Shown here: in pieces, positions 3,068-57,508 of the stretch
Layout: the number at the start of each line of letters is the position of its first letter
Position numbering within the stretch: the first letter of the stretch is position 1
Assembly: GCA_964019415.1 (NCBI GenBank)
Contig: OZ025883.1
Coordinates: 4,556,088-4,620,087, forward strand
Source: Ianthella basta
Lineage: Eukaryota; Porifera; Demospongiae; Verongiida; Ianthellidae
Length of the DNA stretch: 64,000 bases
Direction of reading: 5' to 3'
Position numbers and translations under genes: made by a program
Notes under the pieces: generated by a model
The model's input: the letters and a program-made list of their open reading frames with translations, nothing else
The model's database searches: none
What the model was told of the DNA's origin: nothing

Positions 3068-3508
3068 CAGTCCCAAGTAGGCATAAATAATGACATTACA
3101 AGCTGATAACCAGTACACCGTACACTTCGGCAAACCGACTAAAGCAAGGGGCACCCGTCAACAGTCAGTAAAATATCAAATCGCTATTCATCCACTTAAT
3201 TGGCGTTGCGAATTAAATACTATCAGAAACAGATTAGTACAAGTACAAATGACTGGGGTAAAGATCAATGCGTTCACAAATCACCCGCGATCTCCTTCTT
3301 ACCTCAGAGAAGCCTCCCAACCTTCCACACGCTGTGCTCGTCCGTCCCTCGAGGCTGTACACCGCACACGTCTTAGTCAGCACCTTTAGTGGCCTCACTT
3401 CCACTTCCAGATGATAATTTTGAAGTGGAAATCCAGCGGGATTTCCCCCATTCCTCACAGCTACAAGGTTAATAGCCTGACCTCCCTATTGAGAGGGAAG
3501 GAAGCAGC

Positions 3509-7512
<4,004 letters not shown>

Positions 7513-7879: not shown

Positions 7880-10800
7880 ATGGCCGATAGCGCCAGGCAA
7901 GTCAGTGATCTATGCCTTGACGGAGACGCCGTGCGAGAGACTGGTAAGAAGCTGGGGAAGGGAGCCTATGGCGAAGTAGTCGAAGTAGAGTACCTGGGAA
8001 CTCTGTGTGCCGCCAAGAGAATCCACTCCATCCTGGAAGAGTCAGGCAGCCATCCCGAAGAAGGATTCCGGAGAGAGTGCGAGACGTGGAGTCAGCTCCG
8101 TCACCCCAACGTCGTCCAGCTGCTTGGACTACTGTACAAACCATCTTCTGCATCCAAGCTTCCCATGATTGTGATGGAGAAGATGGATTGTAGCTTACGC
8201 CAGTTCGTGGAAGTGAACGATCGAGATAGACTTCCTTTGTCCGTCAAGGTTGACGTCCTGTTCCAGGTCGCTCAGGGTCTGACCTACCTTCACGGCCAGC
8301 GTCCTCCCGTCGTACACAGAGATCTTAGTCCGAACAACATCCTCATCAGCTTAGCAAGTATGACGGCTAAGCTGTCCGATTTTGGTGTGGCGAAGGTATT
8401 CCAGCTACATCAGGCGAGCAAGATGACCTGTCTACCTGGTACTCCAGCTTTCATGCCTCCTGAAACATTGCCTGAGGCACAGCCAGCATCCAAGGACTAC
8501 GGTGATCGCATAGATGTGTTCTCTTACGGGGGTATTGTGATCTGTACACTCACCCACATGTGGCCAGAGCCTGTGCCATCGGTTGTCCATAAAGACGGCA
8601 ATTTGATTGCACTTAATGAGATAGAACGGAGACAAAAGTACCTTAATCACTTCACTGCTGAGGAGAAAACACTTTTTCTTGTCCTAGTTCAACGTTGCCT
8701 GGAGTTTCAGCCTATGGATCGCCTTACCAGTCAAGAGATACTGATGACTTTGCAAAACGTCAGAGGGACTCATCGAGGGCAAAGCTATGTTCATCTGCTA
8801 CAGGTTAGCCAACTGCAATGCTGGACCTGGGTGTATATAGTGTAGTAATCATAGTCCCAAGCTACACATTGTTTGCATAGCTTGTTTAGCCACACACATA
8901 CACCACTAGTGCATGCTGCCTACTATTTCTTAGCTATATATACATATGCTTAGTTTGTCCATGCACATTTAACCATACGTCTTACACTGATTAAAAGCAT
9001 AGTTGTAGTTGTCATGCAGGGATGTGGTAAGGGGGGTAACAAGGATTTCAGGAAATCTCCGTTTAGAAAAATATCAAGATTGAAGGGGATTTATTGATAG
9101 TATTGCCCACTTAAGGATTTCATGCATATAGCTGCTACTAGAGGTATATATAATGTTACTCATGTTCACTGTAGAAGACACTCTGTGTTCAGTTTTATAT
9201 CTTTCCCCATGTTTACAGCTATTCCCCTTATATTGTACCCCTTTAGCAAAGTAGCTATGTAATTATTATAGTCCTTAGATTAAGCAATCCTATGACATCA
9301 TCTATTGGCATGCAAACCTGGTTTATATGCTACACCTGGTTTGTAGTGTTAACATGTTCATATTTTCATGTGCTTAAACCTGTACAGAGCCTTCATACTG
9401 CTATGAAATCCAATGAAGAGGCCAACGAATTGCTCCAGAAGAAAGTTGAGGACCTTGAAAGTTTGAAGCTTGAGAGAGCAGTAGGTTTACTACATGCTGT
9501 GTATTTATGCATCATACATGCCATGTTCATACCCTCATACAGCGTATATTTTGCAAGACTTAATACTGTATGCTCTAATTTCACAGGGTTTTCATTTGAA
9601 GTTCACAGAATTGCCATTTTCACAGATACTCATTACAGTTATGTGTAAAAGTATAGGCAAATTGATCATGAGCAAAGACGTAACAGAATCAGTCAACAAC
9701 TGGCTGATTGCAGGGCATTTTGGCCACGAAGGCCTTCATCAGCTTCATACAAAATGCAGCTGATTAAGGCCTACATGGCCGAGACATCCTGCAATCAATG
9801 TTGCTTGATTCTGCTATATACATCTTGCTCAAGATCAATTCGCATACATTGAACAACATAGACTGAGCATCTGCAATATCATGCCTGCGTAACAGTCATA
9901 ATGTTGACAAATTTGAGAAAAGGGAAACCTTGTGCTAAGACTGAGTCAAAACACAAGTGATGGCTCTTTGTTGCACTGTGATAAGCTCTCAGTATACTAG
10001 TCCCAATGTAGCCTTGCTTTAATTATGATAATTACGCTTGGGCTGATAGCTATTGGATGCAAAAACACAGCTAGTGGATGAAAATTGTTTTCAATAGCAA
10101 CACTATTTAGAATACCACCACAAAGTGCTCTGAGATCATTTAATTAGTATCTGATGACCCTAGGGCTTATGTATATATAGCTACCGCTGGTCTTCTTGAA
10201 TAGCTTTAAATTGCTTGCACTAGCTATATGAGCCTCATCAGTCAACAGCTCATGACAACGGCAGATTTTAATATCCTTTCTTACACTTAACTGTTGAGCA
10301 CAAGTGTGAGCTATATATATACTAGGGCATACATTAAAATGCAACCAGCCTCGCTTGAATGTATATAGCTAGCTATTTCAGTAAAGTACAGTGCATGAGC
10401 GTAACTCGACCAGGGTAAGTACATTTTGGGCAATAGAACTGTAATCTGCTATCACTGGCTGTCAGAAAGAAGGGATAGCAAGCCAGACGAAGCACTGGAT
10501 GGCAGCTGGGCAATCGACACCTACATATTTGGAGCTGCGCAGGGAAGCCCGTCCGTGCTGTGCTAACACAGTGCTCGTTATCACTTCACCCGAGTGAACA
10601 GTGGGAAGTGTTCCCGGCCACACGGGACAAATGACGTCAGCCAATATGGCGGAATGGCCAACAGGCGTGTAGCCCTCGCTGGAGCAAAGAGCGACGTTAA
10701 CAACAATCTGAACGCAGCATGCAGCGATGAAGTGGAGTGTTGAGCAGTTTCGTGGCTGATGGTGGCCAAGTAGAGCGTTTTGTTGTCGTGAGCGCCTGCG

Positions 10801-13800
10801 GAGAACACCAGGCTATTGTGCAATCTAGGTGTCTCGGGTTGACTGGGACGGATATACATATATACATATACACATACATACAAACGGGGACGACAACGCA
10901 TCACGATTACTTGCCTCGCCTTTCGGCTCGGCAATAACATTATCACAATCCATGGTATATTGTGATGTATAATTGTTTATAATGTACAGTACTTAATATT
11001 GAAACAAATAAGAATTAATACAAAATTAATGTGTATACGGCATATATACGTGTAGCAGTGGAACTAGTATTGTTTGTGTACTAGTCTATATATAGATGAT
11101 GATTACATACTCGTATGTGTGAGAGTTGCAGCAGAAATTGCAGTTTAGCGTGAAATGTAATTTTTGGAAAATGGCGGCCGAAAATCGGCGACATTGGAGG
11201 AGTGAGAAGTGGCACTGAACAATTCTGTTGAACTATTTGAACACATGTGCACTTCGACCAGTACCCTAACTTCAGAACTATCAGTAGAGGAGACGTCAGG
11301 GTTGGCAGAGAGCAGCAGCTCGACTGTACAGGATGCAGTGGTGACTGTCGCTTTGTCCCCAGACTTTTCCCTGGAGTGTCCTGTTCTATTGAACTCACGG
11401 AAACTCACTATTTCGGTTTTAAAGGCTATCACTCGGGCATTGTATCTCCCGAGCAAGGGAACGAAGGAAGAGACCGTGCTGATGATTGAGGGGAACTTCG
11501 CAGAGTATGGCCAGGAACCACAGAATGTCCAAGTGAATATTGTGGCTCGTGAGGGATCGAGCAAGGTGGTCTTGATATAGAGCTCATAGGTGAGGGTGGT
11601 CCCTTCCTCAGTATGGAGTGGAGCGCTGCAGAGGGCAGCCTCAAGGGATGCACTGGATGATGCCATTGAGTCAGATCCCAGTGCTCCTGAAAGAGAGGGA
11701 AGTCAAGATGGTGACAGTCCATCAACTGAGTTCCACCAAGTGAGAGAGAAAAATGACATCCTCAAGATGCGTACGTATTTGTGATTTGGAGACCGAGCGA
11801 ATGAAGTCACTGTGGAGGGCTAATTGTTCCTTAACGAGAGAGTTTGAGGAAGCAATTAGTGATAAGGATGCATCTGAGACAGCAATTGGTGGCACTTCAG
11901 GGCGAAACCATGTCAAGTACATGCACTACCGGTCCAGTGGATTCCAGTTTAGCAGGGGTCACTCCGTCAGTGGCACTGCATGGGCATGATAGCCACCCAC
12001 AAACGTAAGGGTAAGGCACCCCCAGTTGATTCCTTTACAACACTTTCACATGCACCGCTTAATTCAGAATCATAAACTGGATTGAATCCGGTTTCAACAT
12101 GGATTAGCTTGCACGGCAACCTCCCTGGGGTACTGTGAGCACATCGCAATACGCCCCATGACTCGACTGGTGAAAAGCCCTCCTTTCTCTTGTATGGAAT
12201 TGACTGCCGCTATCCAACTGAATCTGCTCTGTTACCCCCGACACCAATCAAGCCATTTGCAGTGAAAGACTACCGAGAAGAGCTTGTGCTGATGCTTGGA
12301 GAAGCCCGTAAACAGGCTATATCGTTGCCATCCTGAAGGCACAAAAGCGTTACAAGAAGAGTTATGATCAGTGTGCGAAGGATCCCACCTTGTGAGTTGG
12401 GGATTGGGTCCTAGTGAAGTTTCCTCAGGAGGAATCTGGCCGCCTTAGAAAGCAGTCTAGGCCCTGGCATGGACTGTACTGAGTCACATCTGTGGACTTA
12501 CCAGACATCATGGTGACCAAGATTTATCATCCTGAAGATGGCTCACTGCACTGCAAGTCCACTTAACACATGTTCAGCCATGCCCACCCACTTTCCCTCA
12601 TGGATTCTATTGGTATGGAGGAAGTCAGTATTTCCCTTGAAAGGTACCTCAGTGGGTTCAATCGCTGTTGGACGAATCAGATGATGCTGCCCCTCGATAT
12701 AATCTGCACAAGCATCAACCACCTAGAGTTCGTTAAGCTCAGGTCAAGCTCTCTCGAGGGGGGAGGTGATGTAACAGTGGAACTAGTACTGTTTGTGTAC
12801 TATTCTATATTTAGATGATGATTACATAATCTTATGTAGTGTTACGTATGGACTCGCATGAGGGCGGGACAGCGAGACAGTGTTTCATTGTCACTGACTC
12901 ATTGCTCTCTGAAGACGAGTTCATTGTTGATTGCATGCTCTCGCAGCCTCGCTGTTCGACACTTTGGTGCTAGCGAATTTACATATATACATATCACGTG
13001 GTTCCATGATACGGTATCACAATATATAATCAGGGGCGGATACGGGGGGGACTTCTGGGGCTTGAACCATCCTCCCAGCTTGACTCAAAGCTGAAATACT
13101 TTTTTCTCAGTAAATTGCTCTAAAATGTTCATCCAACAGGATTTAATGGCCTAAATCATTTAAATAACTTTAGAGGAGCTGCTGTATGCTTAATAGAGAC
13201 TGGTGTGATTGCACAGGGATGTAAACTCAGTCCTTTCTTAGTTCTAGCTGCCAACAGCCATTTCTAATTACGTCATGATTGCACAATAAAAGAGCTGAGC
13301 CTCCACTCAAAGGTTGGGCTAGATCCGCCACTAATAATATTATATATACATAGGATTCTCACTGCAATGCCCTTCACATTATTGTCATATGCATGGAGTA
13401 TTGTGACATATTTCCATAATACATGTCTTATAGGATTTACAGGAGCTGAATAAGAAGCTGCAGGATGAAAATTTGGTTTTATCCTGGGAACGTGAGGAAG
13501 CAGTGACTAAACTACAGGAAGCAGAAGAGAATGTGATCCTTTTGCATGAAACAATAGAGGTATACAGTAAACAGCACTGCATTATTTTACAAACACATTC
13601 ACATGCGTACTGAAGTCTTGCATGCGCAGTTGCTGATCAATGGCTGCAATTAGAACCTTGAATTGATAGTTTTAAAATTTATTGACAAGTAGTACTCTAT
13701 AATAATATGGTCTTCTTGGGTAATGCAGACTTTGCAGGGTCAAATAGACGAACAGGATGCAATGCTTTCCAGAATGAGGAATGAATATGGGCATGAACTT

Positions 13801-15571
13801 TTACTCGAAGGACCACAAGTGCTTCAGGTAGGAAGCATGAGCAAGTGTGTTTTAAATACAGCAGCCATGCATAAAGATGAAGCTATATACATAGGGCACA
13901 GCAGGCAGTCAATATAATTATGTTTACTAAGATGATTCCATAGTCTTGCAATTGCCAGCCGTTCTGGTGTTTTTGCGCAATAACACGTTCGCGGTGAATA
14001 GGGGCTGGATGCGAGACTACCCCTATGTCATGAAATCACACATTGTAGTGCACACTTCTTTACATTTGTTAAATAAATATGTGTTTCCCTATAAATAGAC
14101 TGAAGCTGAAGGAACAGTGATGGGATACCAGGAAACACAGTCATATGGCCCAGTAAGGGAAGACCCCACAAAAAGGCTAATTTATGACCGGGTATTTCTT
14201 CTTTCAATGCGATTTCTGGGGGTGTGCCTCCAGCCGCCTACACACTTGTTTCTTCCAGGAATGATGGACCTTGTGGGTCGAAAGGAGATGATGCAGGTGT
14301 GTTTGCTTGCATATTGTTATATGAAGAAATTTTTGCATTGAGAGGACCATGCACTTTGCACTATGGAGTGAAACAGTTGCATGTGGGTAATTTTTTGGGT
14401 GAAAACACATAATTGCATCATTGATATCTGTGGTATAGTTCCTACCTGCCGGCCAAGATTGAATCTTATCATTTCACCTACCTCCACTACCTCCACCAAT
14501 TCCAACTCCCTGCCCCAACTTCACACAGCAATCTTCTCTTTCATTCCTCGTCTTCACTACTTTCATCTTCTCCCAATTTAAGTGTTTAAAATTTTATAGT
14601 TTTCACAGATCAGCAGCCATCTCCAAAAGTTTCATTCTGCAAAAATTTATGCAAGGCTTTAGATATCCTGTGTGAGATGCAAAAAGTAAAAATGTGAAAA
14701 TCATAAAAATTCACGAACTGCAAAATTTTAACGCTACAAGAGATAAAACATAATAATACAGTAGTTACTACTGAGCTTCTAGGGCATAACAAGGGCACTC
14801 CTGTGGTCAGAAAACACGTTACACCCTAGAAGCTTACCCTGATCGTAATGCAGTTTCAGTGTACATGCAGGATATACATACATAAATTATGAATGTGTGG
14901 TGTTTTAATCAATGATGCAACTAAGTATGGCAACACTTGTTATATATATTAATGCGCACTACCTTACATATGTAGGTGATTTGATGTAGTTATGATGTCT
15001 TTATAACGTCTTCACACAGCAACCTTCAAAGACCCAGACTGCCCCTAAACGCACTGTGAACGCTCTCTGTTTTGTTGACCCTAACACCAACAAACCCCTG
15101 GACCTTGGTGGTGTTGCCAGTAGCAGCAAGAGCAAGTCCCCAGAACCTACTACACTGACAAGTCCCACTCAGGACGCCAAGCGGGAGGAATTTATGGCCA
15201 AGATTAGTGAAAGGTCAGGTAGCATGGCGGACATGCACCATTCAGATTGGGCCTTCTGAGCATGCTACTAGGACAGCCCAGCTGGTCATGCCCCATGCTG
15301 CATGCCAATGTGACACATCTCGCTTGCTCTGTTCCCTTTACTTGAGGCATAGCTACATGGCTTGCACATGCAAATATACAAATATTCTGTCCACAAGGTG
15401 CCACAGAAAGCTGGCTTGTGTGTGTGTGTGCGTGCGTGCGTGTGTGTGTGTGTGTGTGCGCACGTGCGTGTATGTGTGTGTGTGTGTGTGTGAGTGTGTG
15501 TGTGTGTGCGCACGTGCGTGTATGTGTGTGTGTGTGTGTGTGTGCGCGCACGTGTATGTGTGTGTGTGTGT

Positions 15572-15619
<48 letters not shown>

Positions 15620-15820
15620 CTGTTGTGTATGTGTGGCTGCATATATTTGCACATATGCTACTGTACAATATCATGCATGAACAGTGAGCCTGTACTGGAT
15701 GCCATGTATGAAGTGTGAATAAGCTGTGTGTATGGCACACAGCTACTCTTCACCTTCTCCACTCCGCTGCTTTTGTTTAGAGTACCAATGCAGCCGCAAG
15801 ACCACAGCGGGAGAGTTTGA
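7880..15820 (+). CDS. Kinase gene 1: TKL-like kinase, coiled coil and eIF4G-type eIF4E-binding motif
   Basis: Seven exons read in phase to about 557 residues: 7,880-8,803, 9,388-9,480, 13,434-13,559, 13,729-13,827, 14,099-14,296, 15,020-15,213 and 15,781-15,820. Exon 1 is a complete kinase domain: Gly loop [18 protein letters not shown] with the ATP lysine, [19 protein letters not shown] and GTPAFMPPE. The loop lacks the Lys usual after HRD in Ser/Thr kinases. Exons 2-4 are coiled coil (about 309-414). Exon 5 has [12 protein letters not shown] followed by CLQPP, matching the eIF4G eIF4E-binding site (Y-x4-L-hydrophobic at about 443-449, then CIQKP in eIF4G). Exon 6 holds [15 protein letters not shown], recalling the DPN motif of animal eIF4G N-termini. 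The frame stops at 15,818-15,820, so MIF4G, MA3 and W2 are absent. Inferred role: a cytoplasmic kinase able to hold eIF4E. The kinase is sure; the last two exons are less so. Confidence 0.8.
11051..13021 (+). mobile_element. Ty3/gypsy LTR retrotransposon fossil inside kinase gene 1
   Basis: Similar end repeats open with TGTARCAGTGGAACTAGT at 11,051 and 12,770. The 3' copy is about 250 bases and follows a purine-rich tract. Between them are a gag-like stretch (about 11,200-11,580) and the C-terminal part of an integrase region (about 12,160-12,740) with [16 protein letters not shown]. Most of pol is missing. The copy is broken many times, looks old, and lies in the long intron between exons 2 and 3 of kinase gene 1. 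Confidence 0.75.
13032..13330. mobile_element. hAT-like MITE
   Basis: About 300 bases bounded by short inverted ends: CAGGGGCGGATAC on the left and the reverse complement of AGTGGCGGATCTAG on the right. Such ends are typical of hAT MITEs. No coding capacity. It lies in a kinase gene 1 intron. I could not read a clean 8-base target duplication. Confidence 0.5.
15415..15618. repeat. (TG)n microsatellite with CGCACGTG interruptions
   Basis: About 200 bases of TG repeat containing several repeated GCGCACGTGCGTGTATG interruptions, so it is a compound minisatellite. It lies between the last two exons of kinase gene 1. Confidence 0.95.
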
Positions 15821-16361: not shown

Positions 16362-19300
16362 ATGGCCGCTGCCCCTCATCTAACTCTCAATTTGGCGGAT
16401 GTACGAGAAACTGGCAAGAAGCTGGGCGAAGGGTCCTACGGTGAGGTGGTGGAGGTAGTGTATCTTGGAACGGCGTGTGCTGCGAAACGGATTCACTTGG
16501 TTTGGGAACAGTTGGGCGGCAAACCTGAGGAAGAGTTCAAGCGAGAATGCGAAATCTGGAGTCGATTACGGCACCCAAACGTGGTCCAACTGCTGGGCCT
16601 CCTGTACAAGCCCTCCACTGGTCCAGGTACGAGGCTACCGATGATCATCATGGAGAAGATGGATTGCAGTCTGCGTCATTTGGCGGAGACTCGCCCTCGC
16701 GAGGCGTTCCCTCTCGCCATCAAGATTGACGTCCTGTTCCAGGTGGCTCAAGGACTGACCTACCTTCACGGCCAGCGTCCTCCCGTCGTACACAGAGACC
16801 TTAGTCCCAACAACATCCTCATAAACATCGGCAGCATGACGGCGAAGCTGTCCGACTTTGGTGTTGCTCGAGTGTTTCACTCACAAGCCAGCAAAGGGAC
16901 CCGTGTTCCTGGCACTCAGCACTTCATGCCACCTGAGACGTTTCCAAACGCAGTAACGTCTGAAATAGGGCACAGGGATCGTATTGATGTCTTCTCATTT
17001 GGTTGCATCATCATCTGTGCAGTCACACACATGTGGCCCGAGCCTCTTCCCCCAGTTAGGCAGACAGAGCAAGGATCACTGGTAGCTCTCACAGAGGTAG
17101 AGCGAAGACAAGAGTACCTCCGTCATTTTGACCCTCAGGAGAAGGAATGCTTCTTTGGTATGGTGCACCAGTGCTTGGAGTTTGCTCCTTCAAAGCGTCC
17201 CAAATGTATGGTTTTGACGGAGGCTATGAGGGTGCTCAGAGATGCTCACCCACTGAAGGAGTACTCTGAATTGCTGCAGGTTAGTTAAGAGAACAGCAGT
17301 ATGTGTAGCTAAGGGTTGCAATGGGTTCAAATGAGTATTATATATTGTATGATTCCAATATAGTAAGCATATGCACTACACTTAATGTTAGGTCACATTG
17401 CTATGAGCCCTGCATGCAAGGATTTGCTGTATACCACTGCATGGTGGGGTCTTTGCTGTACCTTTGCATGTATGACTCGCGATGCTTCACTGTGAATCAC
17501 ATTTCCCTTGGTTTTGTGCGCAATTTACCTCTGTAACATGTCAGTCTAATAGCTGAACAAAGCCAAAACTTTCTGTTTCATTGACTGTCTTCTTACGTGA
17601 ATGGATCGTGACTCCCCATTTTATATATGTATATCACTGATGAACATTACATATCATATGTACTTTCTATAATGGTGACTCTTCCATCATGTAGGACTTA
17701 CGAGCTGTTCAAAAGCAAGCTAATGAAGAAACTCAAAGGACACACAAAATAATCAGTGACATGAAGGTCCAGGAGACTGTAAGTTTGCAGTATAGCATTA
17801 CTTGGCTGTCTCAATTTGATATTAATTTCTGACTCTATTTGACATTTTTGTTATTATTAAGACTCCATTTCATTTACCATTCCTTACGGCTGCGTATAAG
17901 ACTTGAATACAGTTGTGCACTGCAGACTGCCAGTGATATAGATCATTGCATGATCAACCATTGTTGGCTGCATTAAATACTGTGCACATTTGTCCAGGAG
18001 CTGAGGGATGAATTAAGAGATGTGCACTCCCAGTTGAGTACGGTGCAGGAGGAGAAAGGTAGCTTACTGAAAGAGGCACAGGAGCAAATACTCCAACAGC
18101 ATCAGCAGTTACAGGTAAATCAGCAGTTTTTATGCGGGTGAATGAAACTCAAAATGGCACAAATATACGTATGCATGGGCATATTTCTACATTAGTGCAT
18201 CCAAACATGTATGGCTACTCCAAAATGTTTGTGTTCATGAATGACTAAAAGATGCCATCTTTTAGTTACTGAAGAACGCAAACAAGTGTTAATACAAATG
18301 CTGTACATTTCCTCACGATTATAGGGCTCGGGTACAGTTGTGCAGTGCCGAGATGTATACATTATACATAAAGACCAATGCATCGACCGATATTGACTAT
18401 ATTTACTTGCACTACACTATTGCCAGGTGCTGAGGGATGAGCTAAGAGAAGTGCGCTCCCAATTGGGTGCAATACAGGAGGAGAGGGACGGCTTGCTAAA
18501 AGAGGCATCACAGCGACAATTGCACCACCATCAGCTGTTGCAGGTGATTGGGATGTATTTCTGCTCCATCTAATTACGTAACGCTATACACACTGAGAAG
18601 GCAGTTTGTGTCATTTGAGCAACTGTTGTGGTGGTGTGCACATGCACTAGCTCTTATGCACTATGCTATATATGGCTAGTGCAAGTATTTTTTTTAAGTC
18701 TGTGCTAAATATCTGAAAGCATATAATCACAGTGAATATCATCACCCGAAAGCACTCCTGGCACACACAAGTTATTCCCACGCATCTAATTAACTCCTGC
18801 ATGAACGATCACAGAAACACTTTCTTCTCATTTGCTTCTAAGGACATGAAGTACTATTTCTGCAGACCTGAGATGGCCCATGGTTTTTGAAGCAAAAATT
18901 GTCGCTTACAATCTAGTATCTAAGTGCACAGAAACTTCTATGCATTCATATGTTATACATTCGGTCAAAACACGTGTATGCAAGAATCTTTAGTGGGCGA
19001 CTTGACCTCAGTGGATGTCAGCCATCTTCTGTAATAGCTCTAAAGGCTTTACTGTCATCAGCTCATGTATATTGGCTTCGTGCTTTGTATTTGTTATTGA
19101 TATTCATTGATCCATTGATATTCTCTATATATTACCCACTACAGGTCAGGCAAGAGAATGCCCCAGCAGCCAAACAATCATCTACCAATGCAGTGGCCAA
19201 CAGAGAGAGCTCTACTGATAAGACTGAAGGGATCGTAATTACTGTACAGGGAGACCAACCCCCTCTGGCTGCAGAAGAGGAAAGAGAAGAGGGTGAAATA

Positions 19301-22300
19301 TCAAGCGATGATGATTCAGACACTGTCGATATCAGCAAAGGGAGACACATGAAACAAGAAGGTGTGCTTGGCTCATTGGATTGAAATGGTCATAAATATA
19401 GCTGCAAGCTGTTGGTATATTAATACAGTACTCTTCATCTGGTAATTATTAACTATATTCATACATGCTCTTAAATGTGTGTTATGCTACTCACATGCAT
19501 GCTGCTCCCCTGTCAGATGTTGCTTCTCCTCCTCTCATACAGTTGGTGGGCGCATAATGTATAGCAGAGATCAACTGCTGTCTTTACGATTCCTCAAGGA
19601 ATGCCTGGAGCCACGTGCAGGCTTGTTTTTCAACCCTGGGACAATTTGTCTGGTCAAGAGGGTTGGTGGTGGCCTACCAGGACCCTTGGGTGTAGCAGTT
19701 CACCCCCGAGATGACGGACACACTGGACCAATTAAGAAGGTATGTACTTATGCACACATGTGGATGTGTGTGTGTGTGTGTGCCCTTTCACATGTCCTTA
19801 CACATCATTGATATGCCCACCAATGACGTGAGATAGTGATGATGGAATTCTTTGTGCATTCCACTCGATGTACTGGATATTGCACTCTGTGCAATATTTC
19901 ACCCTTCGCTGCCTTCTTCAAGCACACTGAATCACACCAACCACAGGAAGCTATTAAGATTTAGTGTACCTCAGTTAACCCTGAAAGGATTAAACATGAT
20001 AGTCTTGTGTGGAAACTACAGATCTGTTTTAAGCTCTTCGCAGGCACATTGAGCAGTTTCCATGACTTACTCTCAGTCCATTTTATTGAATTGTGTGTGT
20101 TAGCTTAACATTTGATTTTTGTATGCATCATCACATGAATTGAACATTACCTTCATTGTTGTATTGCAGAAGGTGGAACTGCGGAAAGCTGATGTTGCTT
20201 GGAAGAGGACAGCAGAGGTGGCAAAGGAGCAGACAGAGGAAGAGAAAGAGGCCCAGGTTACTACGTATAGCACCACAGTGCATGACTACCCCATGTACTT
20301 CACCATCGATGTGGAGCTTGCAAGGCATTTGATGGCAAATTCCTTTGCATGCAATCCACTGTCCTGACATGACACGTGATGAGCATACATTGCATTATCA
20401 TGTTTTGTGTGTGTTCCCTTTCCACTCCCATGTTGTAGGATCTGTACCGCAAGTTCCAGGGTATTTTGAACAAGTTGACTCCTCAGAAGTTTCAGAAACT
20501 GGCTGAACAGGCAAGGGAGCTTATGAACTCGGCAGCTACTTCTCAAGAGAGGCTGAGTGGGTGCATTGAGAAGATTTTCCTCAAGGTGAGTGCAGAGTAG
20601 TGTGTCTGTATGCACACATGTATTTATGTACCCAAGTGTAGTGACACTTTTGTGCAATAACTGTGACACCTCAGAGCATTTGTGTGCTGCCTACGTCTTT
20701 TGTGTTGGCATGTGTGTGTGCTGTAAGCCCCTTTAACATAACATTTTGTGTGCTGTATTATCCTTCCTAGTTTCAATTAGTCTGGCCCGCTAGACCGTCC
20801 CGTAAGCGCCCGGTAGGCGTGGAAGGGAAGGGACGGTCTAGCGGCAGTATAGATAAATAACACCTTTTTGACCAATCAGATCCATTTCCCCGGAATCCCA
20901 GGTAATAGTATTCATTGACCATTGAAGACCGGGCAAGCATGTGCGATTAGTTTGGAGGCGGATCGTTGCTGCTATCTTTTCGTTGACTCCGTAGAACAAC
21001 CGTACTACTCGGTTAAGCGAGGCACGCTAACAGCAGCTGGTGAGGCTCTCACGCAGCTCGTAGCATTTAACTGCAGCTCCGAAGTCAGAGACAATGAAGC
21101 TCCATGCCTCTGCAAGGATTGTGACAACGCAGTAATGTGGCTAAAGAGTACACTACCAACACGGAAGGTAGTGCCGAACATTCCTCCATAGTAGTCACAA
21201 CAATGCGGCAAGCACTCGAATATGATGGACTTCCCATGTCCAGTGACTTGGCACCAGGCTTACGAACGTATCCTTACGGCTGATGACGCTCTTCAAGGCT
21301 TCCTTCTGACGTCTCGTTAGGACCAACATTGACTTCCGCAGTGCACTTAAAGTGAATGATACAGCCCCTTCGAACGACTCCTACCTGATACTGTACTAGA
21401 CAGGTGCGACGTAATAATTGGCACGATAATGCAAAGGTGTTATTTAATCTGTACTGCCGCTAGACTGTAGTCTCGCGCGCCAGTCCCTAATATTGCGCAA
21501 TCGCTCGTAGGGAAATAGGGGCTGGCGCGCGAGACTAGCTAGACCGTCCCTTCCCTTCTGCGCCTACCGGGCGCTTACGGGACGGTCTAGCAAGCCAGAC
21601 TAAGTTTCAATAGCCAGACTATTACCTTGCCTCCATTTTTACAGATTGCGTCATCCAGGTAGCGGTCTGGCTAGTGAAGCTAACACTATGTAAACTCCTG
21701 CCATTTGCCTATATGTATAAGGATTTCTTCAGTTTAATGGGTACTCATCCCATTAGATTGTAATGATTAGGTGTCAATAATGCAGCCCCAAGCATTGCTG
21801 AAGCACAGTGATGTTACTGTACTATGTATTTCTGTATATGGTAAATGCTGCCAACTGTTTGAGTGCTCATGTCTGTCTGCTGTATCTCCTTATTAGGCAT
21901 TGGAGGAACCAATGTTCAGTGTGGCTTATGCCAAGCTTTGTCTGGTGCTGGCAGCGGTAAGCATCCATCACCATGAGATAGCTTGGTTTTAGAACTGTTT
22001 GTACCGTATGTGGCAATGTTGACACTTTACTTTGCTTCCATACATTTTTGAAGAATGATTATACCATTCTGTGGTCCGTTCCAATTTTGCAGAATGGTTA
22101 GACAGTTCCGTTCTGTTTCTGGTTTGCCACTCAATGGGTCTTCGGCTCTCCTACCAGGACACCAATACTGGTGTAGCTGGTAGGTCGGTGTAATGTAGCC
22201 AGTGATTTTATTCTGTCAACTCAGCTGGCCATGTGCCATGTAGTGGCTACTGCAAGAGCTGTTCATTCAAAAACTTCATGCTGCACAAACAAGTAGCAGC

Positions 22301-25222
22301 AATGAAGTGCATGAAGGGGCAAGCGTGGATGGCAAGAAGTACCGTTAGTTATACACGTCTGAGTCTCCAACCAGCGATTGCAATTGTTTCATTCTCGGCA
22401 AACTGTCTCAGTCGTTTACTCACCACCAAACCATCTCTTAATTGTATTATCACCTTATCGTCTTCAACTTATTCAACATTTACCATCATGTAGTAAATCA
22501 AAATGTTAGTGTGGTTGTTGTCGCACTATGTGCACATTTGATGACATTTTCAACATCGGCATTCCACTTACATCTATACGTCAGGTGGATTAGTACTACT
22601 GTAGTGTTTGCTTTGTTTTTCCACAGCACAAAGTCACAGTTGATGTCAATGAAGATGGTACCCCCAAAATGAAGTCCTTTCGTGCCCTCTTGTTGACCAA
22701 GTGCCAGGAAGAGTTTGAGAAGGACAAGAAGGATGATGAGGAATTGGACAAGCTCAAGCAAGCAGTGGAAGAAGCACGGACTGTGAGGAGGGATTGTGTA
22801 TTGGGGGGGGGGGGAGAATTGAATTTTAGGCAAGGAATGAGGGAGGAGATACAGTTTACTAAAGATACAGGAAAGACTGTGTGCGCTGACGCAGAGATAT
22901 GGCACTGTATGTCCTCTGCTCCTCACAATGAATATGGCTAGATTCCTAGGGATGAGGAAGGATGTTGTGGCCGTAAGGGTAGCATTCCAATCATTGCTGG
23001 TTCATTTGTTTCTCCAGGATGATGAGAGGAAGCAGAGGAAAGAAGAATTTGAAGAGGCAGAATTCAAGTCCCGTCACAGATCTCTTGGGAACATTAGATT
23101 CATTGGAGAACTGTTTAAGTTCAAGGTAAGGGGAGTGGCCATGCTTGGATGCTTTCATTTTCCACTTAGTGTCCATGTAATTCTTAATTCCCTGGGCATC
23201 ATTTCCTATTGCATTAGTTTTGCATCCTACGTACATTCTTTTCCTTTCCATTCCTTCCCCTCTCACCCTGCTCTCTCACTGCCATAGCTTCTCTCAGAAG
23301 CCATCATGCATGAGTGTGTTCAGAGACTGCTGAGATCAACTTCAGATGGAGAACCTCTGGAGTGCTTTGCCAAGCTAATGTCCACCATTGGGAAGGAAAT
23401 GGACCATGACAAGGGAAAGGTAACATAAACAAAGAAGATAGAATGTGCTCTAAACAGTAACTGTTCTACCTTTGGATTCTTTAGCCCCTAATGGAGAAGT
23501 ACTTCAATAGAGTGAACCACATCATTGAAGTAAAGAAGGTTGACTCGCGAGTCCGGTTTATGTTACAAGACCTGGTGGAGCTCAGACAGGTGAGGGAGTT
23601 GCAACAACCACACAACTATGACGGTCCCTTAGGGAATTGACTCAATTGTGCTGCCCCACTGCTTCACACAAACATTGCATAGCTCGCTCAAAGTCATATC
23701 TATTCATTGCTTCTCTCCTGATGTTCACAGAATGCTTGGGTTCCTCGCAACCACCAACCGATGATGGGATGGCCCAGAGGAAGCATAGATCGGGGGAGTG
23801 GAAGAGATGATTGGCTGTCAGGGGAGCACAGCAGCAGACCAGCTCCACCCACAAAGATTGACGCAGAAAGGTTCAGCAGAGTGATGGCTAGGAGTGCAGG
23901 GGTGAGCTAGTGTGGGAAAGAAGTACTACAGATTGTGTCCCCTTCTTGTGAAGAGTCAGTTCACACCACAGTAATAACCACAGTACTACCAACTGTTGAA
24001 GTGATTGCTGATGCACTGCGAATTACATTGGCACAGCTTAAATTCATTTGTCTACATTAATACACTTAATCGCTGTAATACTTTGCTACAGTATTGTGTG
24101 AGGTGTGACTGACTGTTTTGTTTCATGTCCTCAGCAGCCCACCCGCCTTGGACCTCCCCCCGGTGGATGGGCAAAGAACCAAACCACAAAGTTGGTACTG
24201 CTGAGTAGTTGTATTGTCTGTGTTAGTACAAAGTACATGTCATATTGAAACCAAAGTAGCTATGAAGGAGACTTTTGTATGATATCGTAATGATTAGTCA
24301 AGGGACGTTAGTGCCATTGTCACTGGTCAGACCATACAGCTGTAAAGGTATATGTGGCAATACAAATTTAATTCTATTTCCATTCAACATTAAGGAATGA
24401 CTTCGTAGTTCTGTGTTGTGTAGTTTGGTTCATCCTAGTTTTCTTGCTACGCATATACTCTCTGCTGTAGGGGTAAACAAGATTCCAAGCCTTCCATTGC
24501 CCTTCCTCCTCCTGCTGGGCCTCGGAGATCATCCTCACAGCCCTCTGATGCTGAATCTCAGCGAAGCATTCTGGAGGAGGTGGCCAGACTGACTGGTGGT
24601 GAGCTAGTTGACAAGGCACCACCTCCTGAGACTGTGGTCAGTGATGCTCTAACTGACGAGGAAGTGGAGAGGAAGTCAAAGACAATTGTTGGAGAACTGT
24701 CCTCCAATGAAGACTACAAGGTGTGGATATGTGAGGAATAGTGTTTGTGTGCAGTAGATACGTACTGTAAATGCACATGTGCATGTTTACGTACTTCTAA
24801 CATCACCTGTGGCTTTTGGTACTATTCAGGGAGTTGTCATTTACTGCATGAGTTCTTCTACAGCCATGCTGTTGTATCTCCTTTGCTCTTCAATCCTACA
24901 TGTGTCTTCGCAGGAAGCTCAATTGTGTGTGAGTGAGCTGCGTTCTCCGGGGAAGCTCTACCTGTTTGTTACCACTGTACTCAACCACACTTTGGAGAGG
25001 TCTTCCAAGGACCGTCAAGTGGCTGGTGTACTATTTGACCAGCTGCTGAGGGAGGGAGTGTTGCCTGTGGAGGCCTTCATGAAGGGGTGAGGGTTTGGGA
25101 GGGGAGGCCATCAGTGTGCAGATCTGACTTGTGGTATGCATGCACACAGCAGTTGTGGAGTCAGGGAGACTTACATACAGTAAGTAAGTAAATTTAAAGG
25201 AGGATATGTGTGTACATGTGTG

Positions 25223-25296
<74 letters not shown>

Positions 25297-25308
25297 CGCG
25301 TGTGTGTG

Positions 25309-25346
<38 letters not shown>

Positions 25347-27977
25347 GGTAGGTAAATAATGGGTGGTACCATGGACTGCTCAGAGTCAGAGCCCATAGTA
25401 TACCAACAATCCCTACTTCTCTGTAGTCTGAATGAGTTGTTGGAGTATGCTGAGGACTATGAGTGTGACGTTCCCAAATTCTGGGATTACCTTGCTGAAC
25501 TGCTAGCACCTTCTGTGGCTCACAAGGGGTTTCCCCTTGTCATCCTGAAGCAGGCCCATGATGGACCACTGGAGAGTGGCAAGATTGGAAAGCTGGTTGC
25601 CAAGACACTCAACAAGTGCTCCACTCTGAAGGTAGTTAGTAGATGTATAAGACATGCCACACTAGTTAGCGATTATTTTGGTTGTAGTACTTTTTACAAC
25701 CAGTAAAACCAGTGGAAGAGAAGTTGAGGGATGAGATAGGATGTGGTGGAGTAATATGCATGGGAATTAAGATTTCAGCGTCTGAATTAACATATTCATC
25801 CTTTTTTATCTTATTTGTTGCCTTCTTTATATTTGCTTCGCTTTGTGTCACTGTTGATCTCTCCTCCCTGCAGGGTGTCACCCAGGACCAGGTGTATGAT
25901 GTGTGGTCCCAATCTGGTCTGAACTGGTTCACACACTTACACGTCCTCCCTGAGGACCTTGGCTACCTGCTGGAAGACCACGTGAGTATTCCAATGTCAA
26001 TGCCATGCAGTACCCACCCATGTACATATACCCAGACACACTCTTACCCTTAACATGTTAATATAGATTCTTATCTTAATATACAATACCTAGCTCCACT
26101 TCTATCTGAATTAATGCATCTTATTCATTGTCTGTCTATGTCTAGATAGTTAATATTTCATTCTTGCTTTCTGCAAGCCTTCATTTATCTTTCTACCTCC
26201 TGTAGAAACTTGCCTTCCTGACTCAGAAGCCTCCTGTTCGCCAATCCTCATCCTTGGGAGGCCAGACTCAAGGTAGTGGTGACTCGAGGCCACGAAGTGA
26301 CTCCAAAGACTGGTCTCGTTTGTTGGAGGAGCAAATAGGGTCACATCAAACGACTAATGATGTTCTATTTAAATACATAGAAGTAAGTGTAATTTGACAA
26401 AGTTTGATGATGCGTGGACGTATATACGTATGTACACGTGTTTAGCCAATGAAATGTGTATGATGTGACCTCATGTCCTCCCTGTGTCTCCTTCTGTCAA
26501 CCTGTGCAGACCAAGCATGCAAAAGAATTTAGGAGTCCTGAATTCATGTATTCCCTTTCGAGTGCTCTCACTCAAGCTGTTGTGCAAGGTGAAGCTGGTG
26601 GAGCTGTAATCATTCAACCAAACTATGCAACCAGTTGTTGCAGTACTTATGCCGGGTGATTTGGCGGAGACATTTTTGGACTGATTTGCAGTTTTCAAAA
26701 CAGTCCGCAAATATTTCCTAATGCCAATACCACAATAGCATTATGGCTGTCCAACCACCAAAGTGTATCCAGTCAAATGCTATTTTTGTACCATCTGCCC
26801 TAAATAAATTTCTGCCAAAATTTCCAGCCGTATGGTTTAACATATGGAATGCTGTCTTGTGCAGTGTTGTACGTATCTGCTTGGGTTGTATGATTGGTGT
26901 GACTAACACTACTCATGATGCAACAGCAATGTATTTTATTCTCTGCTGCATTTTTGTGGGCTATTGGTTCATTCAGCATTAATTGTACTGCTTAACAATT
27001 TATACTGTCCTTATTGCTTGTTTTCAAAGGTGAAGGTGACTCTGCCATCTTCAATGAAGAGCAATTTCAAAAGCGATGTGCAGTGCTGAAGAAGTGTGTG
27101 GGAGGAAACCCAGAGCTTCAGCTGCAGGTCATCTACGGCATTCAAGTGACTCTGGCACAGAAACAGCATCCCAAAGGTGACGTGTAATGAATTTACAATT
27201 GTTTAAGTTCACTTCCTAGAAAGGCCAGACTGTTCCTTGTGTAGAGAGATCCTGTAATGTAGTACAACACTGTACTCTTATATATTACTAGCAGAGAAGC
27301 CTGCCTTTGGCGGGCTTCTCTTCTATGGCACTCGTCCAACCTGTCCCATGGTGCCCTCAGCAATCATGATACTGCTACAGCTAGTATTATGTCGGCTAAA
27401 AATGAAACAATAGCTGGTTTAAATTTGACTGTAGGACGACATCCAATTCTCATAAGAACCGGAAGTCAATGGGAACCGTAATTAGAAAATAGCAGTCATT
27501 CGCAGAGAAAATGGGATTTGAAGGATAGCTCTCTGTGAACCACAAGACGGGCGACATCAACCCCGCTATAACCTGACTCTCAGTGCCCTCCACAACGACA
27601 GCGAGTTTCACGCTGATGGTACAAGAAACATGTGCACACATCGCGAATACACACAGCTTTATTGTATATTAGATATCTTCTTGAAGATGTACCAATGCAA
27701 TGCATCATGCTGTCTGCGTGGATTATATTTCAGTTTTGCGTATGCAGATTCGGCTCCCTCGCTGTGTGTGTACCCTCTCCCTGTTGCAGATGTACTGCGC
27801 TCCATGTTCAACTACCTCTATGACGAAGACATTGCCTCAGATGACACCTTCTTCCGTTGGGAGACGTCAGGGAGGGAGGACCTGGAAGGACGAGGTGTGG
27901 CCCTCATGTCAGCCAGCAGCTTCCTGGAGTGGCTGAAGAGTACAGGAGAGGGAGACGGGGAAGGGACTGGGCAGTAA
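16362..27977 (+). CDS. Kinase gene 2: TKL-like kinase fused to a complete eIF4G scaffold
   Basis: About 25 exons join in phase into roughly 1,332 residues. Exon 1 (16,362-17,279) is a full kinase domain: [37 protein letters not shown] and GTQHFMPPE. Coiled-coil exons follow at 17,695-17,778, 17,998-18,114 and 18,427-18,543, then an acidic linker at 19,145-19,361. Exon 19,543-19,739 carries the eIF4E-binding motif MYSRDQLLSLRF (about residue 491). Next come 20,170-20,256, MIF4G exons (20,439-23,589), a linker (23,731-24,190), MA3 (24,471-25,631) and W2 (26,510-27,974), stop TAA. eIF4G bridges eIF4E, eIF4A and eIF3 on mRNA, so the product would be an initiation scaffold carrying its own kinase. 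No start codon or promoter for a separate eIF4G is evident between kinase and scaffold. Two adjacent genes, or alternative transcripts, remain possible. No PABP-binding segment is seen. Confidence 0.82.
19543..19739 (+). other. eIF4E-binding exon of the kinase-eIF4G gene
   Basis: The exon enters in phase 1 and reads VGGRIMYSRDQLLSLRF, a canonical Y-x4-L-hydrophobic eIF4E-binding motif followed by LKECLEP. Vertebrate eIF4G has the same layout (YDREFLLDFQF then ACIQKP). The next exon's VELRKADVAWKR matches the eIF4G stretch just before MIF4G (IKLNKAEKAWKP). Confidence 0.85.
20439..23589 (+). other. MIF4G domain exons
   Basis: Exons 20,439-20,585, 21,897-21,956, 22,627-22,782, 23,018-23,125, 23,288-23,419 and 23,485-23,589 encode the HEAT-repeat MIF4G domain. 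Landmarks are ILNKLTPQKFQKL, RLSGCIEKIFLKALEEP, FSVAYAKLCLVL, LLLTKCQEEFE, LGNIRFIGELFKFKLL and VDSRVRFMLQDLVELR, each a conserved eIF4G position. This domain binds eIF4A and RNA. All phases are zero. Confidence 0.93.
20778..21602. mobile_element. MULE-like TIR element with 9-base target duplication and an internal gene-like fragment
   Basis: Terminal inverted repeats of about 65 bases begin TAGTCTGGC and contain GCTAGACCGTCCCGTAAGCG on both sides. AGTTTCAAT directly flanks the element at 20,769-20,777 and 21,603-21,611, a perfect 9-base duplication as made by Mutator-like transposases. Inside, 20,922-21,191 is an open frame with Cys-rich ends (DRCCYLF and CLCKDCDNAVMWL), perhaps a captured zinc-finger exon. 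A smaller nested palindrome with AGTCTCGCGCGCCAG ends lies at about 21,470-21,535. The element sits in a MIF4G intron of the kinase-eIF4G gene. No transposase is present. Confidence 0.8.
24471..25631 (+). other. MA3 domain exons
   Basis: Exons 24,471-24,720 (C-terminal part), 24,914-25,086 and 25,427-25,631 encode an MA3 domain, the second HEAT domain of eIF4G, which binds eIF4A. Landmarks are TIVGELSSNEDYKEAQLCV, LERSSKDRQVAGVLFDQL and VPKFWDYLAELLAP. The next exons (25,874-25,981 and 26,206-26,382) match the eIF4G linker to W2. Confidence 0.9.
25208..25345. repeat. (TG)n microsatellite
   Basis: TG repeat of about 135 bases with a few GC interruptions, in the intron between two MA3 exons. 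Confidence 0.95.
26510..27977 (+). other. W2 (eIF5C-like) domain exons
   Basis: Exons 26,510-26,588, 27,030-27,176 and 27,790-27,977 give the C-terminal W2 domain of eIF4G. The signature MFNYLYDEDIASDDTFFRWE is followed by GVALMSASSFLEWLKS, close to human eIF4G1 FFDALYDEDVV and GVALKSVTAFFNWL. In eIF4G1 this domain recruits MNK kinases and eIF4A; whether it interacts with the fused kinase is unknown. Confidence 0.92.
27288..27673 (-). mobile_element. Non-autonomous Helitron-like element (candidate)
   Basis: On the minus strand a 12-base-stem hairpin (one G-T pair) is followed by TGCTAG and then T, the expected Helitron 3' end inserted before a T. A possible 5' end, TCTAATATAC preceded by A, lies at 27,673. 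It lies in the last intron of the kinase-eIF4G gene. The 3' end is convincing; the 5' end is a guess. Confidence 0.5.
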
Positions 27978-54742: not shown

Positions 54743-57453
54743 ATGGAGACTGTCAGTGTCAGTAGCAAGATTTTAAAACCAGATGACATTCAACCAACAG
54801 GAACAGTATTAGGAGAAGGCTCATTTGGCAAGGTAGAAAAGGTCTACTACTTAGGACATTTCTGTGCAGCGAAATACATCAAACCCTTTTGGGAAGAGCA
54901 GGGCGGGAAAGCAAATGAGCAGTTTGAAAGAGAATGCTATATTTGGAGTACATTGCATCATCCCAATGTGGTGCTAATTTATGGTTTGGTATATAAGCAC
55001 CCATCTTGGGCTTCCTCAAGCCGACAACCAGCCATTATCATGGAACTGATGGATCATACTTTGTGTGAGTTTATGAAAAGCCATGGTCGGATCCCCCTTC
55101 AACTAAAAGTGGACATTTTGCATCAAGTTGCAATGGGACTAGTGTACATTCATGGCCAGTGCCCCCCTATCATCCATAGGGATATCACTCCCAAGAACAT
55201 TCTTATCAACGAAGGAAGCATTGTTGCAAAGCTAGGAGATTTTGGTGTTGCCAAAGAAGTTGACACTTCTACATGTAGTGATACTACTGAACCTGGCACT
55301 CCTTCCTTTATGCCTCCAGAGGCACTTGAGAGAACAAAAGAGGAAGACAGGGAGTATAAAGATAGATATGATGTATTCTCCTTTGGTGTCTTAATTATTT
55401 TTGTGATCACACAAACCTGGCCTAAAGTACTAGCTCAAAGGATAATTGAAGGTGGGAAGTTGATTGCCCTTAATGAAGTGCAACGAAGGGAGGCGTCACT
55501 AAGGAAATTTACTGATGAAGAAAATAAATGCTTCCTGGAAATCATTCACAAGTGCCTTCAGATTGAACCTGTCAAGCGTCCTACCAGTGAAGACCTGCTA
55601 GATCAGCTGAAATTACTTCTTCCGGATTTCCCCGCAAAGAAGACACATATTCAACTTTGTAAGGTTTGTTATTACAATATGTTGTTGCCATCTACTGTGA
55701 AAGTAATGGCCCAAACATTATTGAATTTAGTGATTACAGTAACGCAGGAAACCTTCTTGGAAGGATGTTTTGCATATTCCAAAAATTGCCCCAAACTGTA
55801 ATTTTCACATTATGTTGAGCAGATAAACCACATCCCTTGAAAATGGTAGCTGACTACACGCATACTGTTGGGCAATGCTGCTCTACTGCCGTGGAAATTT
55901 GGAGACTGAAACGTACTGTAGAACTTACACCCTTCTCCTCTGTCCTTTTGCAAGTGCAAGGATGTCTCGTTGGGGTATTGCGCTAATACTCTCCATGTTG
56001 AGTGACCTAGCTAGCTACCAGTAGTCTCCTCTTCGCTTGTATCACTGTAAACTATTACGTTCTTCACTGCTTCATTGGCAGCTGCGATAGTGGGGTACAT
56101 ATATTTAGTACTACTGTTAAAGGTGAGCTATCTGTCTTAGGTAGCACTGACTCTCTCGAAGTAGCGACCTCGAACACATGTAGACTTTTGTGTAGATATT
56201 CATTCACAGGGCAGCAGTGCAAGCATGACACACTTTGCCTTCTGAGCCAGCATACATAGCTGTTGCCACACATCGTAGTTGACTGCCACCTAAATGAGGC
56301 TAAGCCGTTATAGAAGCCACCATCTTGTCTTAGTTCACCGCCAAACACACTAAAATCATTTAAGATTACTATAAAATATTTGAGGAGAATATTTTTGCAA
56401 ATCATGTAATCTATCGGAAATCAGAATCTATCACAAATCATGATCTATCAGAGAAATTCACGAAAATATTCTTTTGCAAAAAGTTTTCCACTATACAGTA
56501 AGTTTAAGTAGTCTGTGATTATGAATCACTCTGCAGTTGAATGATTTACAATGGATTTAGATGTCCATCTTCTGCTTAGCTTCACAAGTCTTGCAGTGTA
56601 GAGCTTCATTGGGCTAAACCTGACAGAGATTTTATGATATTGGTTGCTTGCATTTTTGTACAAAGACTGCATCATGTGATAGAATTTTGAATGTCTGTAT
56701 GAGGTGCAGTCCTTAGCTTTACTATGAGGCTCTCTCACATTCGAATATTGATGTTACTGTTAAGCACATCCTTTTTATATGTGCTTTTCCTCTGTTAAGC
56801 AAACACTTCATTTCAGGGGTTCAATCCTTTGTTGAATTGCATAATTATAAGGACTCCTGGTAGAATAGTGGAAGTGTAATAATGAGTATCATGCGCAGAC
56901 TAGCAGTGTAGTAGTGCTTAAATGGAAACTGACATGTGTGCCATGTGGCGGCCATCTTACCATGACATTAGCATATAATAAAATATTTACTTGACCCATC
57001 TTTTTGTTCAATGCATAACCTTTATTAAGCCCATATTTCTTTCCTGTCAGAGCTATAAGCCCATATGTCTAATAGCCAATCAATACCATAGTTCATCTTC
57101 CCTAGCATGTTTTCTCCTCTTTGGTGTGTTGTATGCCTTCTTTTCATCTGACTGGCTACATTGACTAATTATTATCACATTGAATACTTATCTATCATTA
57201 CCTTGTTATTCTAATAATTTCCTGTAGTCATAGTTAGCATAGATGGGTTAGTGTATACTCTGCTATATATTCAGGAACTCGCTGAAAGGGACACAACCAT
57301 AAACAAACTGAAAGCCAAGGTACAAGTAAGTTTTAAGGGTTAAGATTGTATCTTTACTCTTTACCAACAGTGTTTGAATTTTATGTATGAACTGTAGACT
57401 ACGAAATGGCGTGATGAATATTTCACCTCAGTGCATGCACCGTAGGGTTACAA

Positions 57454-57508
<55 letters not shown>

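Follow-up and report, generated by a model that had tools for sequence, protein, structure and literature searches.

The locus examined here raises the question of whether a protein kinase and the initiation scaffold eIF4G are encoded by a single gene in the sponge Ianthella basta. The usual eIF4G of animals is not known to contain a kinase domain, and MNK kinases dock on eIF4G, which holds the kinase at the initiation complex. The window, i.e., the whole stretch of 64,000 nucleotides that was analyzed, corresponds to C16:4556088-4620087 in the assembly searched, which comprises 96 contigs and 209 Mb. The original prediction placed an in-frame fusion of a kinase and a complete eIF4G at positions 16362 to 27977, which we call gene B. 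Our results suggest that this interval is probably one chimeric gene, in which a kinase module joined to a truncated eIF4G duplicate would be tethered to initiation complexes.

We modeled gene B from its open frames and splice sites, and by comparing it with a second eIF4G copy, as 23 exons on the + strand, from 16362-17279 through 27790-27977. All 22 introns are of the GT-AG type and their phases agree throughout, as had been proposed, although for about 24 junctions. The modeled product has 1332 aa and a single, terminal stop, with its domains in the order kinase, coiled coil, acidic linker, eIF4E motif, MIF4G, MA3, and W2. The catalytic Lys, HRD, and DFG motifs were picked out by eye in exon 1, which we take to encode a kinase. 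A Pfam search of the 1332-aa model confirmed that this exon is intact, with Pkinase at residues 17-284 (E 1e-36), and placed MIF4G at residues 583-816 (E 9.7e-49), MA3 at residues 957-1066 (E 1.5e-20), and W2 at residues 1252-1323 (E 9.8e-14), the last three all exceeding the curated Pfam cut-offs. The exons for the linker, eIF4E motif, MIF4G, MA3, and W2 indeed all lie on the + strand, MIF4G, MA3, and W2 being Pfam-backed. The parts of gene B are as follows.

16362-17279, + strand: exon 1, with the start codon and the whole kinase domain (Pfam; dN/dS against the four closest paralogues)
17695-17778, 17998-18114, and 18427-18543, + strand: exons 2-4, predicted coiled coil, phase 0 at both ends (splice sites, heptad score, similar exons in sister kinases)
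19145-19361, + strand: exon 5, chimeric, with no source found for 19145-19247 and the eIF4G acidic linker at 19248-19361 (DNA homology, protein search)
19543-19739, + strand: exon 6, predicted eIF4E-binding motif (gene model, comparison with the kinase-free copy)
20170-20256, + strand: exon 7, joint between the eIF4E motif and MIF4G (gene model, comparison with the kinase-free copy)
20439-23589, + strand: exons 8-13, MIF4G domain (Pfam, exon model)
23731-24190, + strand: exons 14-15, between MIF4G and MA3, with AAA|GT as the exon-15 donor (gene model)
24471-25631, + strand: exons 16-18, MA3 domain and the region preceding it (Pfam)
25874-26588, + strand: exons 19-21, between MA3 and W2 (gene model)
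27030-27977, + strand: exons 22-23, W2 domain and stop codon (Pfam)

Three coiled-coil exons had been described. With a simple heptad score, exons 3 and 4 were supported, their scores being reached by 1.0% and 1.45% of shuffles, respectively, and so were exons 2-4 combined (0.1%), but not exon 2 alone, for which 24% of shuffles reached the score. The phase-1 join from the linker to the eIF4E exon is as described, and the motif predicted in exon 6, YSRDQLL in gene B versus YNRDHLL in the kinase-free copy, fits YxxxxL-phi. The introns range from 64 to 1311 bases, and the 601-base gap between exons 4 and 5 lies inside this range. We found no polyA hexamer in the 18544-19145 gap and none within 600 bases 3' of gene B either, so polyA evidence is uninformative. 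The exon-15 donor (24190/24191) reads AAA|GTTGGT in gene B and AAG|GTTGGT in the kinase-free copy; it is possibly the weaker of the two, which would count against the fusion reading.

The search for a second, kinase-free eIF4G that the original prediction had called for was successful. Matches to the eIF4G query were confined to chromosome C16, where minus-strand positions 4740422 to 4717425 contain a kinase-free copy; 133 kb separate the fusion from the closer end of this copy. Its N-terminal frame spans 543 aa, its linker exon is longer, gene B exons 5-23 have matches in it that are free of stops, and there is no kinase between its N-terminal exon and its linker. Its first exon was not located in the sequence up to C16:4740422. 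Since a kinase-free eIF4G with the N-terminal region is present on the same chromosome, the fused copy is a duplicate rather than the animal's general eIF4G. It is not a complete eIF4G either: the N-terminal region, which bears the PABP-binding site in eIF4G, is absent from the gene B model, and its only trace is the following remnant.

15014-15267, + strand: remnant of the eIF4G N-terminal exon, 254 bases, upstream of the kinase and outside the gene model (85% to the kinase-free copy)

Comparison of the two copies also located the breakpoint. The window DNA around gene B is homologous to the kinase-free copy at 15014-15267 and then from 19248 on, introns included, and about 1.67 kb of eIF4G sequence is missing in between. 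In the place of this missing stretch there are therefore the kinase exon, exons 2-4, and the initial 103 bases of exon 5; because the homology resumes inside exon 5, this exon is chimeric. A protein search found no source for its first 34 residues. A stretch at 15781 was considered as a homologue of the exon 5 start and rejected, as its 11-base match scored 22 against a maximum of 26 in 200 shuffles. From the breakpoint on, the eIF4G part of gene B is 77-96% identical to the kinase-free copy, in blocks along its length, and the introns show many gaps between the two copies.

Purifying selection acts on the eIF4G part of gene B along its own branch. In an alignment of 868 codons, the fused and kinase-free copies differ with a dS of 0.115 and a dN of 0.041 (ratio 0.36) and no stop. 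Two other copies served as outgroups for 12 of the 18 whole eIF4G exons (508 codons, 6 sites ambiguous), which assigned 20 synonymous and 24 non-synonymous changes to the fusion branch and 19 and 20, respectively, to the kinase-free branch. Neutrality of the fusion branch was rejected at transition weights of 1, 2, and 4 (P 0.001, 0.006, and 0.02), and the two branches did not differ (P 0.83). The eIF4E exon (19543-19739) is the exception, with 14.5 non-synonymous versus 3.5 synonymous differences between the copies, although the motif is kept; the resolved changes comprise 8 non-synonymous and 2 synonymous ones assigned to the fusion branch, compared with 4 and 2, respectively, for the free branch. 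The kinase exon has a dN/dS of 0.11-0.17 at a dS of 0.69-0.98 against its four closest paralogues.

The kinase itself belongs to a large family, with at least 129 scored matches in the genome, contigs C11 and C14 accounting for many of these. Its best PDB matches were CTR1 and STK11; CDK2, Roco4, and IRAK4 were present too, and the best 60 of 2330 matches did not include an MNK. Judged by these PDB matches and not by a tree, it would be TKL-like. The four closest kinases, two on C15 (C15a and C15b) and one each on C22 and C14, have 79-81% protein identity to it. DNA similarity to them spans the kinase exon, and the coiled-coil exons give just short, weaker matches. Two further paralogues lie in the window on either side of gene B.

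7880-14296, + strand: gene A, a paralogous kinase with 63% identity to B, followed by coiled-coil-like exons and one resembling the eIF4E-binding exon (protein matches)
54743-63223, + strand: gene C, a paralogous kinase (48% to B) with coiled-coil exons at 62513-62635 and 63107-63223 (protein matches)

In a tree of 20 kinase sequences, the C15, C14, and C22 kinases formed a group with gene B (support 94/95) that excluded gene A; gene C had a long branch and its position was unsupported. This placement means that gene B is no simple copy of gene A, and we rejected the idea of a single duplicated unit comprising genes A, B, and C. In gene A, the exon at 14099-14296 encodes YDRVFLL, a divergent version of the eIF4E-binding sequence (E 8e-6, 51% over 37 aa), and if spliced as modeled, the gene would specify a kinase lacking MIF4G and carrying a 4E-BP-like motif. 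Gene C is followed by MIF4G exons beyond the window (C16:4621346-4630490), without the linker and the eIF4E exon. Rearrangement affects the later eIF4G parts of region C/D, where a stop interrupts one exon.

Each of the four closest kinases is followed, on its own strand, by another gene, and the join is phase 0 to phase 0 as scored from the last recognized coiled-coil exon to the start of the partner exon. The partner is the N-terminal part of USP9X at C22 (PDB 7yxx residues 93-161, E 1.4e-21), G-alpha at C15a and C15b, and a CAP-Gly protein at C14. Two further USP9X copies, on the minus strands of C22 and C1, have a first coding exon starting MPVLQKEAK, and the kinase-joined copy matches them only from the acceptor AG on (PDFPVDV...), indicating that the start codon and 77 residues were lost in the joined copy. 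The kinase-coiled-coil genes before G-alpha lie at C15:2370910-2377210 and C15:2399573-2404515, and neither G-alpha copy has the MGNC start. The C15a G-alpha was identified through its translation and a sequence match, and that of C15b by Pfam (G-alpha, E 3.4e-14) and PDB (G-alpha q). A free G-alpha gene at C15:2203000, called kinase-free on the basis of 561 bases read and no nearby kinase among the at least 129 matches, reads ...GGGAACATGGGAAATTGC (MGNC); in the same frame, the C15b copy reads ...GGGAAGACGGTAAGTTGT, with the ATG changed to ACG. The former 5'UTR is an open exon in frame after a TAG acceptor in C15b, and the free gene has TAA there. The start losses in USP9X and C15b make a chance in-phase neighbor less likely for the eIF4G case as well.

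Other features of these loci count against a fusion. C15b has a later in-frame ATG, C15a retains an ATG, though not that of MGNC, and the joins at both C15 loci would need a GC donor rather than GT. The CAP-Gly copy retains its own ATG, so C14 provides no evidence for fusion. CYLD had been suspected by eye as the C14 partner, but the PDB match to CYLD was weak (E 0.14 or worse, under dynactin and restin), and the partner is therefore called CAP-Gly only. The joined USP9X copy (C22:5877000-5886900) adjoins an inverted USP9X copy that has kept its own start, and the kinase-free and fused eIF4G copies also have opposite orientations. Judging from these arrangements, inverted duplication may be a route to the joined copies.

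For a wider sample of the family, we inspected 3.4 to 4.6 kb of DNA downstream of each of 13 further members. An NHL propeller was present in three (by Pfam in one and by eye in the other two), a fascin domain in two (by Pfam in both), and a coiled-coil-rich stretch in one, two pieces of which gave no Pfam match; nothing was recognized within these 3.4 to 4.6 kb in the remaining 7 of the 13. A stretch downstream of a C11 kinase (locus L076, C11:1471600-1475800, locus bases ~3081-3656) looked CARD-like by eye and was not supported by Pfam or PDB. The joins of gene B and its closest sister kinases to eIF4G, G-alpha, and USP9X suggest a kinase module that would repeatedly capture copies of the cell's own proteins.

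The in-frame fusion of kinase and eIF4G thus stands as a gene model, based on the chimeric exon 5, the purifying selection, and a similar in-phase join in sister kinases. The kinase module is the sole intact 5' coding end of gene B, and the 3' end is the constrained eIF4G body. We propose that a member of the kinase family, consisting of one kinase exon and phase-0 coiled-coil exons, would have supplied the start codon, the 5' exons, and presumably the promoter, and that an eIF4G duplicate broken inside its linker exon would have supplied everything downstream. Both parts would be carried on one mRNA. The coiled coil would oligomerize the protein; the eIF4E motif, MIF4G, MA3, and W2 would put the kinase on eIF4E/eIF4A/eIF3 complexes without PABP contact; and the kinase could then phosphorylate proteins of the initiation complexes, beside the ordinary kinase-free eIF4G. 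The original prediction was that it could act in cis on eIF4E, eIF4G, or other initiation factors. However, since the partners on the sister kinases are unrelated, nothing ties the specificity of the gene B kinase to initiation factors. The recurrence of the same module with unrelated partners implies that the partner probably sets the location or acts as bait, and the kinase output may be common across the family while the partner varies.

The same interval could instead hold two genes, with the kinase-coiled-coil gene ending in 18544-19144 and the truncated eIF4G having its own promoter and an internal Met, for which the candidates are in RHMKQE or IMYSRDQLL. The in-phase join would then be accidental, and a phase-0 to phase-0 junction has a one-in-three chance; the CAP-Gly partner with its own ATG agrees with this, and the 601-base gap would suffice for an intergenic region if the genome is compact. 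We nevertheless regard two genes as unlikely: the gap fits the other introns of gene B (64 to 1311 bases), the acceptor of exon 5 lies outside the eIF4G-homologous DNA and the frame is open across the breakpoint, and the joined USP9X and C15b G-alpha copies have lost their original start codons. It is more doubtful still that the in-frame chimera is a decaying duplicate that has lost its function, which we consider very improbable. The nearby eIF4G copies are fragmentary or rearranged, with a stop in one region C/D exon, and the exon-15 donor seems weakened, but the frame is open over all 23 exons with no stop, and both the fusion branch and the kinase exon are under purifying selection. An assembly artefact joining two loci might be suspected where several eIF4G and kinase copies are close together on C16. 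Such an error would have had to place the join inside a 217-base exon with the frame kept, in a 7.2 Mb contig, and the same design recurs at sister loci on other contigs. Moreover, differences from the other copy are spread along the eIF4G part (blocks of 77-96%), which argues against a misplaced identical piece, and we give an artefact hardly any credence.

A further possibility accepts the same fusion and assigns it another role, that of a bait, or integrated decoy: a pathogen factor attacking the eIF4G part would switch the kinase on, and G-alpha and USP9X would be baits alike. Some viral proteases cleave eIF4G, which is in line with this idea, as are the use of a single module with unrelated host partners, the size of the kinase family (at least 129 scored matches, many on C11 and C14), the kinase-free copies kept elsewhere for eIF4G and USP9X, and the non-synonymous excess in the eIF4E exon (14.5 to 3.5). 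Plant NLR-ID proteins (PMC4759884) may offer a precedent by analogy. On the other hand, Pfam and PDB confirmed no immune domain in the CARD-like stretch of L076, and the MIF4G exons are constrained like those of the free copy, which an ordinary scaffold fits too, so a bait role seems to us a tentative and rather improbable account. We are similarly doubtful that the kinase-coiled-coil module, capturing front-truncated host duplicates (eIF4G, G-alpha, USP9X, and others) as in-frame C-terminal bait or targeting parts and giving a repertoire of such kinases, would constitute an animal counterpart of the plant integrated-decoy receptors.

A kinase tethered to initiation complexes, of the kind we favor, would differ from known systems in several respects. 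Animal eIF4G (eIF4GI/II) has the eIF4E motif, MIF4G, MA3, and W2 in the same order as gene B, which has a kinase and a coiled coil in place of the N-terminal region. The MNK kinases dock on eIF4G, whereas the gene B kinase is predicted to be covalently joined, and its PDB matches are of the CTR1, STK11, CDK2, Roco4, and IRAK4 kinds, with no MNK in the best 60 of 2330. The sister kinase genes with NHL propellers in this genome share the kinase family and the coiled-coil design but end in a C-terminal propeller, not a host housekeeping protein. Plant NLR-IDs (PMC4759884) may be alike in that a signaling module is fused to copies of varied host proteins, and the joins of eIF4G, G-alpha, and USP9X to the kinase module may, at the sequence level, resemble this integrated-decoy type; the likeness would be one of analogy, not membership, and unlike in NLR-IDs, Pfam detected no NB-LRR in the modeled 1332-aa product. 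Plant kinase fusion proteins with integrated domains would be comparable in the same sense, combining a signaling module with varied host protein copies. Human CHRFAM7A is a known precedent for such a join, combining a partial duplicate of CHRNA7 (exons 5-10) with part of a second gene, FAM7A/ULK4 (PMC11176066); that is one gene in humans, as opposed to several joins in one kinase family here.

We recognized no description of a kinase-eIF4G protein layout in the open-licence papers searched. If expressed, gene B would provide a translation scaffold carrying its own kinase. The sister loci form a natural series of joins, with a start codon lost, a 5'UTR turned into a coding exon, and a breakpoint inside exons, which makes the birth of fusion genes, and a possible integrated-decoy system in an animal, directly testable.

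Some further elements were noted in the window. A frame at 60816-61430 resembled part of a reverse transcriptase, and a Pfam test of it was empty. Exons of a SCO1/SenC-type gene lie upstream of gene A at ~5900-7510 (Pfam SCO1-SenC, E 8.3e-18, one exon). At 20755-21625, within intron 8 of gene B, there is an insertion of ~0.83 kb that is missing in the kinase-free copy; its inverted arms, at 20755-20842 and 21538-21625, are 88 nt long and 84% complementary, and it is probably a mobile element.
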